A DNA stretch of 32,325 nt. Origin: Saprospiraceae bacterium. Its GTDB lineage: Bacteria > Bacteroidota > Bacteroidia > Chitinophagales > Saprospiraceae. Numbering within the stretch: position 1 is the first letter of the stretch; each line of letters starts with the position of its first letter. The notes below the pieces were generated by a model. That model had not been told where the DNA came from, did no database searches, and saw only the letters and a program-made list of their open reading frames with translations. Position numbers and translations under genes: made by a program. Shown piece by piece: positions 26,603 through 32,247 of this stretch. The stretch lies in NCBI GenBank assembly GCA_020629935.1, contig JAHDCJ010000061.1:1-32325 (forward strand), in the 5' to 3' direction.

Positions 26603-27157
26603 TTAAACTGAATTGGCTTCATTACTAAAAATACTAAAGATTGTTTTACCGTAATTTCGTTCTAGCAAATATTTAGGATGATTTTTAAAATCGTGATTGG
26701 GGTTATGTTCCAATACAAACCATCCTTCTTCTTTTAATAATTCATTGGCAAAGATTACATTGGGCAAGGCATCTAAATTGGCCATGCCATAAGGTGGTCC
26801 TGCAAAAATATAATCATAGGATGACGGATTTTTATCAACAAATTTAAACACATCTCCTTTAATGAGGTTGACGTATTGCGAGGATTCTAAAGTTTTGAGC
26901 GTCTCTTTTACAAATCGAATACATGAAGGAAATTTATCGACCGAAGTAATGTCCGTACATCCTCTAGAAAGAAACTCGTAAGTATGACTTCCTGTTCCAC
27001 AGAATAAATCCAATACACTTAACTCTTCAAAGTCAAAGGTATTATTAAGGATATTAAACAATCCTTCTTTAGCGAAGTCAGTAGTAGGGCGAGTAGGCCA
27101 TTTATCTGCAGGCGGATAAAACTTTCTACTTTTAAATTTTCCAGAAATTATGCGCAT
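26603..27157 (-). CDS. rsmD: 16S rRNA (guanine(966)-N(2))-methyltransferase RsmD-like
   Basis: A 184-aa SAM-dependent methyltransferase of the RsmD family that modifies G966 of 16S rRNA. The N-terminus MRIISGKFKSRKF then RPTTDFAKEGLFNIL is diagnostic, and the SAM-binding motif I is DLFCGTG (50-56). The catalytic motif IV, which normally reads DPPY or NPPY, is GPPY here (residues 120-123), with a clear GGA codon. The gene overlaps DUF3822 by 10 bp at its 5' end and is followed by coaD, an arrangement common in Bacteroidota. Confidence 0.88.
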   Translation of the reverse strand: MRIISGKFKSRKFYPPADKWPTRPTTDFAKEGLFNILNNTFDFEELSVLDLFCGTGSHTYEFLSRGCTDITSVDKFPSCIRFVKETLKTLESSQYVNLIKGDVFKFVDKNPSSYDYIFAGPPYGMANLDALPNVIFANELLKEEGWFVLEHNPNHDFKNHPKYLLERNYGKTIFSIFSNEANSV

Positions 27158-28002
27158 AATTTTAGACTAAACAAATCAAAAAAATGATGATTAGGAACGG
27201 TACTCATGGTTGTGGGGAATGTCAAGAAATTCGGTCTTTGAACAAATTCTACATGTCGTACATACCTAAGTAACTGATTGTGTAATTGTGAATTGGCCAT
27301 AATTTCACCCGAAAGATTTAGATTAACTTTTTCAGGACGAAGTGCCAATTGATTAATCACTAGCATAATGAAATAAGTAAAGTCATTTGCACTTTTGAAT
27401 GTATAAGAATTGAATAAAAATAAGCGTTCTTTTTCAAAAACTGCAATTTGCATTATTTGATTCTGTACATTAACAAAAAGCTGTTTGTTTGTACGATGAC
27501 TTGCTAGTTGAAAATAAGACTTAAGCAAAGAAGTCGCTGAATGAGTAAAGGTGGCTTTAGGAAAATAAGTATTTAACAACTTCCAAATCGGTTCATCAAA
27601 ACCATATACATTTTCCAATTCCAATTCCAGAATTTTCTCCGCATTAATTCGATCTGTAGTTTTAAGATGCTGACTTTTTTCTAAATATAAGCGCGTTTGA
27701 TCTTTACTAAACAAGACAGAAGGAATGAGTGCATTCCCATGACTTATTAAACCAATCACTGTTTGTTTATAACTTCTACTTAATAAACGGTCATTGACCA
27801 AGGTTTTTTGAAGATTAGGCTTAAGTTGTACAAAATGCGCATTTCCTTCAAAGATATAATCTCTAAACACTAAAACCTTAGACTGGTCGTCATAGATTAT
27901 ATAAAAAAACCTGTCCATCCCAACAAGGATGGACAGGTTATAAGTTGAGGTAGATTGAATATTATACGAGTCGTCGACTATATTCCAATTTAGTTTTCCC
28001 AA
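27148..28002 (-). CDS. DUF3822 family protein
   Basis: A 284-aa cytoplasmic protein matching DUF3822, whose place next to rsmD is common in Bacteroidota. The start YNLSILVGMDRFFYIIYD (about residues 21-38) and the central pattern with DRINAEKILELELENVYGFD resemble the family. Function is unknown. It overlaps the upstream membrane protein gene by 13 bp and rsmD by 10 bp, showing tight translational coupling. Its 5' coding part contains a strong terminator-like hairpin (27908-27939). The ATG at 28002 is the first in frame, and the residues covering the hairpin resemble the family, so I do not think the true start is downstream of it. Confidence 0.8.
   Translation of the reverse strand: MGKLNWNIVDDSYNIQSTSTYNLSILVGMDRFFYIIYDDQSKVLVFRDYIFEGNAHFVQLKPNLQKTLVNDRLLSRSYKQTVIGLISHGNALIPSVLFSKDQTRLYLEKSQHLKTTDRINAEKILELELENVYGFDEPIWKLLNTYFPKATFTHSATSLLKSYFQLASHRTNKQLFVNVQNQIMQIAVFEKERLFLFNSYTFKSANDFTYFIMLVINQLALRPEKVNLNLSGEIMANSQLHNQLLRYVRHVEFVQRPNFLTFPTTMSTVPNHHFFDLFSLKLCA
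27902..27939 (-). terminator. Intrinsic terminator-like hairpin inside the DUF3822 gene
   Basis: Read on the minus strand, AACCTGTCCATCC (27939-27927) pairs perfectly with GGATGGACAGGTT (27920-27908) around a 6-nt TTGTTG loop, and the stem runs into seven consecutive T. This is the strongest terminator in the window by shape, yet it is within codons of DUF3822, about 64-95 nt after its start and 51 nt past the stop of the membrane protein gene. Confidence 0.7.
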
Positions 28003-28595
28003 TTTCCGGAAGTTGAAGGTCTATTCATATCTCCAAATTGAATATAATAACCAGGTTCGGTAATATCATCTGGGTTGTATTTATTATCGAAGCGTTTATA
28101 TTTTGGTGCTGCGTATTCCCCCATAAAAGATTTCCATGGAGCTTTAACTTGCACTACAGGCACGTTGGTGCTTTGATAAACGATGATGTCAGATTGAATT
28201 TGAAATTTTTCTTTGTTGTCGGTATAAGGCACAAATTGCATATCATCCAAATCCAAACCTAATTGTTGGATAGAATCTTTGGCAGGTACATAAAAGGTTT
28301 CGTACCGCACTTCATCTTTTTTGTCTTGTGCATCTGGATTACCAAATACTTTAACAATTTTAAAAGAATCTGTGGTTAACACTTGTTTAAGCGTATCGAA
28401 ATCATGGGCAAATTTACCAGTGATACCACGAAAAGCGATTTGAGCTGTTCGAATATCCTTTAGTTTTTCGACCACAGCATCTTGCCGTTTCATTTTTTCA
28501 TTTTGGAACTCAATAGGGGAGTAGATGCTCATTACGATTAAGTAAACTAAACCTATTGAAAGAATGGCTAAAAAAAGATTGATTAAAAGTCTCAT
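27990..28595 (-). CDS. Small membrane-anchored protein with pilin-like N-terminus
   Basis: A 201-aa protein with an N-terminal membrane segment (about residues 4-27) and a short basic start, followed by a mostly soluble domain. The passage KLKDIRTAQIAFRGITGKFAHDFDTL (about 45-70) recalls the post-helix part of type II/IV pseudopilins, where an A/F-rich helix is followed by an aromatic residue and a Gly-Lys-Tyr/Phe turn; but the typical prepilin leader is not evident, so I leave the function open. It is the first gene of the tightly packed series to pruA. A promoter (TTG-N20-TAATATTG) lies about 30-55 nt upstream. Confidence 0.65.
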   Translation of the reverse strand: MRLLINLFLAILSIGLVYLIVMSIYSPIEFQNEKMKRQDAVVEKLKDIRTAQIAFRGITGKFAHDFDTLKQVLTTDSFKIVKVFGNPDAQDKKDEVRYETFYVPAKDSIQQLGLDLDDMQFVPYTDNKEKFQIQSDIIVYQSTNVPVVQVKAPWKSFMGEYAAPKYKRFDNKYNPDDITEPGYYIQFGDMNRPSTSGNWEN

Positions 28596-29586: not shown

Positions 29587-29907
29587 TATTTTCTTTTGGG
29601 AGACTGTAATTTAAATAAATTGTACATTTGTAGCAAGTTTACTAAGTTAAAATTCGATAAGGATTGTTTTTGTTTTGTTAAATAGTATAAAAAAACATCA
29701 CATATTAAGCAACGAATTTTATATTGTGGACGTTCCGTATTTAATTCGACTTCCAGAGCGATTTTTCCCTACAATAATTTTAAATCTACTCCTAATTTAA
29801 TTGTGAGTGCACCAACTTCCAATCAATTGAGGAGATGTAATATTAATTATCACCTTCATCTCAAAACTAGAAGAGGGGGGCTTATTTCATTTTCAAAAAT
29901 AACAACT
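29587..29907. other. 320-bp region between divergent acyltransferase and SprB-repeat genes
   Basis: No convincing gene or tRNA is found. A plus-strand TACATTTG (29623-29630) with TTTTG (29594-29598) 24 bp upstream is a possible promoter; the same 12-mer TTGTACATTTGT is in the BlaI-operon promoter. If used, it would give a leader of about 270 nt before the ATG at 29908. An open frame runs from a GTG at 29803 but adds no signal-like residues. A short stem (GAGATG/CATCTC) lies at about 29834-29861. Confidence 0.4.
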
Positions 29908-32247
29908 ATGAAACAAATTTATTCTTTATTTATTTTATTCTTTGCTGTACACAGTGTAACTTTTGCTTGTCTTGATGTGACAAGTTCAGTTACAGATGTT
30001 ACCTGTTTTGGCTCTTCTGATGGTTCAATTGAACTAACGCCAACTTCAGGTCAAGCACCTTATACTTTTTCACTAACTGGTGGTGTAGAAACTAGTCCTG
30101 GAGTATTTACTGAATTAGCTTCAGGCTGCTACGATGTAACGGTAGTTGATGATTTAGGTTGTGATTTTATCGAAACCATTTGTGTTATAGAACCTACGCC
30201 TTTAGTAGCTAATAACAATTGGGCTGAAACCTGTGCTTTTAATTGTACTGGGTTTGGTGAAGTTTGGGTGTCAGGAGGCGTTCAGCCTTATACGTATCAA
30301 TGGGATTCTGGAGATGTGGGCCAATTTATTGAAAATATATGCCCAGGTTATTATATAGTCACTGTAACAGACGCTAATCTTTGTACTACAACTGCTGATC
30401 TTATTGTTACCGAACTGCCACCATTAACTGGAACCGTAGAAACGACAGATGAAACATGCCTAGGTAATGATGGAACAGCCACCGTAATCATGGATCAAAT
30501 GAATCCACCGTATTGGTTTTCTTGGTCAGATGGACAGCAAGGAGAAATAGCCACTGGTCTTGTGGCAGGTGATTATTCTGTTTGGGTAACGGACAGCTGG
30601 GGCTGTGAGGAAATTTTTTATTTTACAATTAATGGACTTATTGATTTTGAATTAAACACTACGGTTACTTCTTGTGATACCGATGATGGAACTGCCTCAG
30701 TAGACATTTTATTTGGAGCGCCAAATCCTGCTTATGCATGGAGTAATGGAGAAACCACTCAAAATGTTACGGGCTTAGCTCCTGGAGGATATTCGGTTAC
30801 AGTTACCGATTTAGATAGTGGTTGTACAAAGAAGGAAAATTTATTTATTACAGAAGACATTGCTTGTAAAGTTCGTATTTCTGGATATGTCTATGTAGAT
30901 GATGAAAATCCAGATTGTTTGGGTGATGTCACTACTTATCCTGCAGTTGATCGAGTGGTAGAACTAAGTAATGGTATGTATGATTATACGGATGCTAATG
31001 GCTTTTATGAGTTTGTGGTCGATGATGGTAATTATGATGTAGTCCTCGTTCCTAAAGCAGTAGATATTATTATATGTCCTGCATCAAATACGATAAATGT
31101 AGATGCAATAATGGATGGAACTTCCTATCCAAACAATGATTTCTATTTGAAATATGATGATGTACAAGACGTATGTGTATCCATTTCTTCTGGAGCTCAT
31201 CGCCCTGGATTTAATGTGAATCAATACATTTATTTTTGCAATTATGGAGGAGATACGATTTCAGGTTCTTTAACGTATACACACGATTTATTATTGGATG
31301 GATTTAATCCAGATATGGCACCCGTTTCCTACGATAATATGACAGGAGTGGCTGTTTTTGATATGATTGATGTCGCACCTTATGAGTGTCGAAGAGTTCG
31401 AGTTTCTTTTACTGTTCCAGTGGGTACGCCTTTAGGTACTTCCATAAGTATTGGTGCTGTAGGTGATCCGATCACAGGTGATGCAAATCCAGATAATAAT
31501 TCAAAAACGGTTACTCGTACGGTTACTGGGTCTTATGATCCTAATGATAAACAAAACCTAACAGGTGCTGATCCATTTGGTGGAGATATTCCAACTTCAG
31601 AATCAAAGTATGAATATCTAATTCGATTTCAAAATACAGGAACAGATACTGCATTTACTGTGGTAGTGAAAGATACCATTGATACCAATTTAGACCTTAG
31701 TTCTATTCGTGTGATTGGAGCAAGTCATTCCTATGAAATTCGCACAGAACCAGGAAATACAGCGGTATTCTATTTTGATAATATTATGCTTCCTGACAGC
31801 TTTGTCAACGAGCCTTTAAGTAATGGGTTTATCCATTTTGATATTGATCTAAAACCCAATTTACCAATTGGTACCGTCATCGAAAATTCAGGAGCTATTT
31901 ATTTTGATTTTAATTCTCCTATAATTACAAATACCGTCATTAATGAAATAAGAAATCCAGTGGGAATTAGTGAAGTAAGAATAGATAAATTTAATCTAAG
32001 TATTCAACCAAATCCAGCGAATAAAGCGACTGATATCTTTTTTGAATTAGAAGAAGATGCAAATATTAAGATTGACTTATTTACAATGACCGGAATTAAA
32101 GTAGCTACGTATTATGAAGGTCTTTCTACAAAAGGAATACAATCCATTCCTCTATCGGTTAAAGACTTAGCTAACGGCGTGTACTTTGTTCGATTAAGCA
32201 ATGAAAATGGCCAAACCACTAAAAAATTAGTCGTTTCAAATGAATAA
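29908..32247 (+). CDS. SprB-repeat adhesin-like protein with T9SS sorting domain
   Basis: A 779-aa surface protein. I start at the ATG at 29908 because it begins a signal peptide (MKQIYSLFILFFAVHSVTFA). Residues about 22-320 form four SprB-type repeats, each with a Cys near the start and the pattern CxGxxDG, Y(T/A)(Y/F)xW/SxG, GLxxGxYxVxVTD, xxGC. Then come a CNA-B-like domain (ISGYVYVDDENPDCLG, about 322-400), a region with SYDPNDKQNLTG followed by EYLIRFQNTGTDTAF and IYFDFNSPIITN typical of DUF7619/DUF11-like domains, and a T9SS type A CTD of about 75 residues (IQPNPANKATDI, then NGVYFVRLSNENG). SprB itself is a gliding adhesin; this smaller protein is more likely an adhesin or surface structural protein. 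Confidence 0.88.
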   Translation: MKQIYSLFILFFAVHSVTFACLDVTSSVTDVTCFGSSDGSIELTPTSGQAPYTFSLTGGVETSPGVFTELASGCYDVTVVDDLGCDFIETICVIEPTPLVANNNWAETCAFNCTGFGEVWVSGGVQPYTYQWDSGDVGQFIENICPGYYIVTVTDANLCTTTADLIVTELPPLTGTVETTDETCLGNDGTATVIMDQMNPPYWFSWSDGQQGEIATGLVAGDYSVWVTDSWGCEEIFYFTINGLIDFELNTTVTSCDTDDGTASVDILFGAPNPAYAWSNGETTQNVTGLAPGGYSVTVTDLDSGCTKKENLFITEDIACKVRISGYVYVDDENPDCLGDVTTYPAVDRVVELSNGMYDYTDANGFYEFVVDDGNYDVVLVPKAVDIIICPASNTINVDAIMDGTSYPNNDFYLKYDDVQDVCVSISSGAHRPGFNVNQYIYFCNYGGDTISGSLTYTHDLLLDGFNPDMAPVSYDNMTGVAVFDMIDVAPYECRRVRVSFTVPVGTPLGTSISIGAVGDPITGDANPDNNSKTVTRTVTGSYDPNDKQNLTGADPFGGDIPTSESKYEYLIRFQNTGTDTAFTVVVKDTIDTNLDLSSIRVIGASHSYEIRTEPGNTAVFYFDNIMLPDSFVNEPLSNGFIHFDIDLKPNLPIGTVIENSGAIYFDFNSPIITNTVINEIRNPVGISEVRIDKFNLSIQPNPANKATDIFFELEEDANIKIDLFTMTGIKVATYYEGLSTKGIQSIPLSVKDLANGVYFVRLSNENGQTTKKLVVSNE

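Follow-up and report, generated by a model that had tools for sequence, protein, structure and literature searches.

The window, the whole stretch of 32,325 nucleotides that was analysed, carries on its minus strand a hairpin at positions 27939-27908. The hairpin lies within codons 22-32 of a DUF3822 gene and consists of a 13-bp stem and a 6-nt loop followed by a run of T. The features of the locus are as follows.

27990-28595, minus strand: gene A, the upstream gene, with a long N-terminal helix and a pseudopilin-like domain (predicted); it co-occurs with the hairpin
27148-28002, minus strand: DUF3822, actin-like fold, with a probable TTG start at 28002 and a 13-nt overlap with the gene A stop
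27940-27989, minus strand: spacer of 50 nt between the gene A stop codon and the stem (median of the relatives 53 nt, 99 loci)
27927-27939, minus strand: 5' arm of the stem, AACCTGTCCATCC, covering the codons N-L-S-I and the first base of an L codon, with compensatory changes in relatives
27921-27926, minus strand: loop TTGTTG, variable in sequence among relatives
27908-27920, minus strand: 3' arm of the stem, GGATGGACAGGTT, covering the last two bases of a G codon, the codons M-D-R and the first two bases of an F codon
27903-27909, minus strand: U-tract of seven T, the first two paired in the stem and the unpaired TTTTT at 27903-27907
26603-27157, minus strand: rsmD, 3' of DUF3822 in most relatives; the hairpin does not require it

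The Pfam match of the DUF3822 protein (E 2e-54) starts from profile position 1 and begins before the hairpin. The DUF3822 alignment takes in the residues encoded ahead of the hairpin as well as those within it, and a wrong start codon with a truly intergenic hairpin was ruled out, as the preliminary description had held on seeing that the encoded residues still resemble the family. In the window, the probable TTG start (28002) lies in the stretch of gene A that codes for its conserved GNWE end. Likewise, the DUF3822 start overlaps gene A in 91/97 loci and is TTG in 72/97 hairpin loci. The stem lies about 60 nt past the DUF3822 start, and it follows gene A at a nearly fixed distance, counted from the last base of the stop codon (median 53 nt, quartiles 50-53, n = 99). 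For the window itself, the close placement reported earlier holds, but the count of 51 nt is corrected to 50 nt, as the stop codon ends at 27990. On the plus strand, positions 29803-32247 encode an 814-aa repeat protein, the C-terminal domain of which resembles, by eye in the translation, a type IX secretion sorting signal.

The earlier account of the hairpin (13 bp, 6-nt loop and seven T in codons 22-32) was confirmed, with the addition that two of the T lie in the stem. The stem energy in the window is -24.3 kcal/mol (13 bp), compared with a median of -20.4 across the loci, and a stable stem with G+C pairs and a short loop, as an intrinsic terminator requires, was found both in the window and in the other loci. 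The 91-nt stretch with the hairpin has a predicted energy of -27.2 kcal/mol (z -4.6), and none of the 200 shuffled sequences folded as well. In the window alone, all 13 of the 13 pairs are formed against 9.7 +/- 1.4 under the synonymous-codon null (P = 0.027), in which the amino acids are kept and the codons redrawn from each gene's own usage. The hairpin is the best-scoring terminator-like site of the last 12 kb of the window. Another strong site of this kind, with a 10-bp stem and a T-rich tail, lies at 22285-22260 on the minus strand, which indicates that canonical terminators are present in this genome. A genome-wide search found the hairpin sequence in a single copy, one per genome, and a repeat or mobile element was thus ruled out. 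Rfam gave nothing at or above the gathering score for positions 27600-28300 of the window.

The comparative analysis covered 120 distinct DUF3822 loci of Saprospiraceae, the family to which the genome of the window belongs, mostly with 25-45% protein identity. As the loci were picked by protein similarity, the sample is unbiased as to codon choice. At least 12 of the 13 pairs are formed at the same place in 101/120 loci, with a common layout of 14 + 4 + 14 nt in a codon-aligned extraction, and the mean number of pairs is 12.0/13, compared with 8.7/13 under the synonymous-codon null. Among 52 distinct sequences, 98.5% of the cells are paired (86.8% when shuffled), changes on both sides occur in 86 cells (23 when shuffled), and the covariation score reaches 0.450, compared with 0.210 after shuffling and at most 0.112 after sliding. 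The sequence of the stem and the loop varies freely among the relatives, the stem bases changing in pairs. Parsimony on a tree of the DUF3822 protein without the hairpin part gave about 73 double changes and 72 single changes that keep the pair, against 19 that break it. The search for compensatory changes proposed in the preliminary description has therefore come out in favour of the hairpin: 101/120 loci keep the stem, with double changes far exceeding pair-breaking ones. A chance hairpin imposed by protein constraint was ruled out by the synonymous-codon null together with the covariation.

Some of the double changes are non-synonymous, e.g., Asp/Asn with Arg and Glu/Lys with Ser. Loci with Asp or Asn at residue 1 of the motif (third base C or T) carry Arg (AGG/AGA) at residue 10 in 38 cases and never Ser; with another amino acid at residue 1, residue 10 is Ser (AGT/AGC) in 58 loci and Arg in one. 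Taken together, the two residues covary in 96/97 cases (positions 27908-27939 of the window and the relatives L004-L147), because the third bases of the codons pair in the RNA. Protein coevolution methods would mistake this covariation for a protein contact. The non-synonymous double changes mean that base pairing selects which residues occupy the first predicted beta hairpin of the actin-like fold.

The mismatches identify the strand. Read on the coding strand, the stems contain 111 G-U pairs and 5 A-C, which points to the mRNA as the molecule under selection. When third positions were scanned in 101 genes, the hairpin codons were strongly biased, and in exactly the two codons that follow the stem T is enriched and C depleted at third positions (z 5.6 and 7.2); beyond these two codons, no comparably strong third-position signal was found in the 101 genes. 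In the post-stem codons, the Phe codons TTT and TTC occur 113:13 (TTT in 113/126), compared with 1165:472 elsewhere (71% TTT; P 1e-6). Also, in genomes above 48% GC, T still makes up 6.2 of 10 tail bases. The synonymous preference for T shows that a U-rich tail is favoured as well. The longest T run after the stem is at least 6 in about 26/101 loci and at most 3 in about 35/101, with T7 in the window. Judged from the aligned loci, the hairpin is conserved and covarying in the coding-strand RNA; across these alignments its stem is strict, and its U-tract is favoured but loose.

In the loci with long flanking sequence, the hairpin is always accompanied by gene A upstream. The distribution of the hairpin was compared with that of the neighbouring genes in the 118 loci on the tree. 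Where gene A lies upstream, a hairpin is present in 107/107 loci; this count includes L085, L087 and L137, which carry a different hairpin nearby, and L134, which has a longer loop. Without gene A, there is no hairpin in 10/11 loci, the exception being L128, which keeps a perfect hairpin though its genome is without gene A. Parsimony placed six separate joint losses of gene A and the hairpin, and no copy of gene A elsewhere was found in those genomes checked that are without it beside DUF3822. One genus that lost gene A shows three states of the hairpin, each in a different species: perfect, reduced to 10 pairs, and absent. Three of the genomes without gene A (L225, L226 and L229) have, by eye, a bactofilin-like gene directly upstream of DUF3822. 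In L085, L087 and L137, hairpins that differ in sequence and position have taken the place of the lost one. A second family of the order (L193, L199 and L210) has 184-226 nt between the end of gene A and the DUF3822 motif; there the hairpins lie in the gap between the two genes, in L210 with a clear U-tract. Relatives of other families with gene A close to DUF3822 have no hairpin, which makes the in-gene arrangement a Saprospiraceae trait. Moreover, a class-wide search gave strong matches (R1) only in DUF3822 of Saprospiraceae, and the weak matches of other families score like generic stem-loops.

The downstream genes gave a different picture. No match to rsmD was found in the 3.3-6 kb downstream of five hairpin loci, and coaD and pruA lie downstream only in the window and three relatives. 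By gene neighbourhood, the hairpin tracks the upstream gene A and not rsmD, coaD or pruA, so the control of these three genes suggested in the preliminary description is not borne out. Its proposal that the element ends transcripts of the first gene is, given this association, the best reading, which the T-enriched tail also favours, while the short T run in about a third of the loci weighs against it.

The two proteins (27990-28595 and 27148-28002) form an uncharacterised Saprospiraceae pair, one pseudopilin-like and the other a PilM/FtsA-like protein of the actin fold. The DUF3822 model has a pLDDT of 93 and matches the structure of B. thetaiotaomicron BT_3980 (3hrg, E 1e-23), followed by PilM and FtsA. 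For gene A, neither Foldseek alone (nothing significant) nor the sequence-family search (no family) gave an assignment. Its model has one long N-terminal helix, and the ten top-ranking structural matches consist solely of type II pseudopilins and type IV pilins, with Z 7.5 over 98 residues for the best match and 3.4 for the first unrelated one. The model points to a pseudopilin-like product. Our literature search found no paper naming DUF3822.

Taken together, the comparative data make it probable that the hairpin is a 3'-end hairpin of gene A, of the intrinsic-terminator type, which has been absorbed into the overlapping DUF3822 coding sequence and throttles DUF3822. In Saprospiraceae, DUF3822 begins before gene A has ended, which places the hairpin among the DUF3822 codons, with one set of bases serving the two genes. 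A polymerase leaving gene A would make the stem and the U-rich tail about 50-80 nt past the gene A stop. A fraction of the polymerases would stop there, the hairpin capping and protecting the gene A mRNA, and the remaining ones would continue into DUF3822. The outcome would be an abundant pseudopilin-like protein and a scarce actin-like neighbour. A partial terminator between the two genes would suit a filament subunit that has to be abundant and an actin-like partner, encoded after it, of which few copies are required. From the comparative evidence we infer the polymerase stop at the hairpin, the ratio that it would set and its purpose. Hairpins are known after major pilin genes; our literature search for stem-loops after pilin genes found nothing. 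Some points stand against this reading: the T run of at most 3 in about 35/101 loci, which is weak for an intrinsic terminator; transcripts ending in the hairpin, which would have no stop codon for ribosomes already in DUF3822; relatives of other families, which have gene A near DUF3822 without the hairpin; and L128, which keeps the hairpin without gene A.

An explanation that we regard as plausible but unlikely is that transcripts end further on, by Rho or processing, and 3'-to-5' exonucleases trim them back to the hairpin, so that the gene A mRNA is protected and the DUF3822 mRNA is scarcer. It would account for a stem kept far more strictly than the U-tract, for the free variation of stem sequence and loop expected of a barrier, and for the association with gene A. 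However, a pure barrier has no need of the synonymous T preference in exactly two post-stem codons, nor of a T richness that is kept in GC-rich genomes.

It is rather doubtful that termination in DUF3822 is adjusted by the cell, through translation, a factor or the proteins themselves, and in this way sets the ratio of the pseudopilin-like to the actin-like protein. If true, it would be a new class of attenuator within a full protein gene, the pairing having steered the evolution of the protein. The version in which the terminator is suppressed by ribosomes that translate DUF3822 or re-initiate after gene A, and DUF3822 and the later genes are transcribed only if translation keeps up, appears improbable. 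The hairpin does lie within a translated frame, the overlap of start and stop in 91/97 loci would permit coupling, and the pyrBI attenuator, as cited in PMC4824070, operates within its leader frame. Nevertheless, RNAalifold on 56 sequences from -75 to +120 found only the one hairpin and no competing (antiterminator) structure, the start is mostly the weak TTG, and the downstream genes are not conserved. In E. coli, ribosomes silence the terminator tR2 only if it lies no more than about 27-30 nt from a stop codon; placed among the first 100 bp of a coding region, where ribosomes seldom suppress terminators, it functions (PMC4824070). By analogy, the spacings of about 53 and 60 nt would match a geometry that gives the E. 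coli test terminator nearly its full activity (PMC4824070), and by this yardstick from another species neither the ribosomes finishing gene A nor those starting DUF3822 should block the hairpin. The ribosome suppression put forward in the preliminary description is accordingly disfavoured.

That a protein or small RNA binds the mRNA at the hairpin, e.g., for self-regulation by the DUF3822 protein or the gene A product, is highly improbable: a single conserved copy per genome in its own operon would suit such a site, but the loop is not conserved, the paired changes keep the shape and not the sequence, and L085, L087 and L137 carry substitutes of other sequence and position. A palindrome acting at the DNA level (operator, cruciform or recombination site) would explain the near-perfect inverted repeat but is hardly credible, with G-T mismatches tolerated on the coding strand only and the T preference on one side only.

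As a probable terminator of gene A, the element shares with known intrinsic (Rho-independent) terminators the strong G+C-containing stem, the short loop, the position soon after a stop codon and a U-rich tail, which is clear in the window and looser among the relatives. It differs from them in lying wholly within the conserved coding sequence of the next gene, in being kept family-wide by compensatory changes that include amino-acid changes, and in the short U-tract of about a third of the hairpins. With attenuators of the pyrBI type it has in common a terminator-like hairpin within a translated frame and no antiterminator structure seen; unlike these, DUF3822 is a full conserved protein gene and not a leader peptide, the conservation follows the upstream gene, and no sign of a sensed signal was found. 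RNA 3' ends internal to open reading frames, some with intrinsic-terminator scores, have been mapped in E. coli (PMC7815308), in one species, whereas the DUF3822 hairpin is known from deep evolutionary evidence. In Methanococcus maripaludis, internal operon terminators set gene ratios (PMC10450193); there too, a partial terminator within an operon lowers the downstream genes, as is proposed for DUF3822, but these terminators lie between genes and not inside the downstream one. The literature search for conserved terminators inside coding sequences found no precedent.

Predicted in-gene terminators are usually dismissed as chance. Here, the pairing has been kept by dozens of compensatory changes, including paired amino-acid replacements, which means that an RNA signal of one gene has shaped the protein of the next. 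The hairpin shows cleanly how one stretch of bases can carry two codes, and it offers a ready system in which to test how cells cope with transcripts ending within a reading frame. Moreover, it links two uncharacterised Bacteroidota proteins, one pseudopilin-like and the other PilM/FtsA-like, as a candidate machine, and the gene A/DUF3822 pair suggests an undescribed filament or secretion-like system in the Saprospiraceae.
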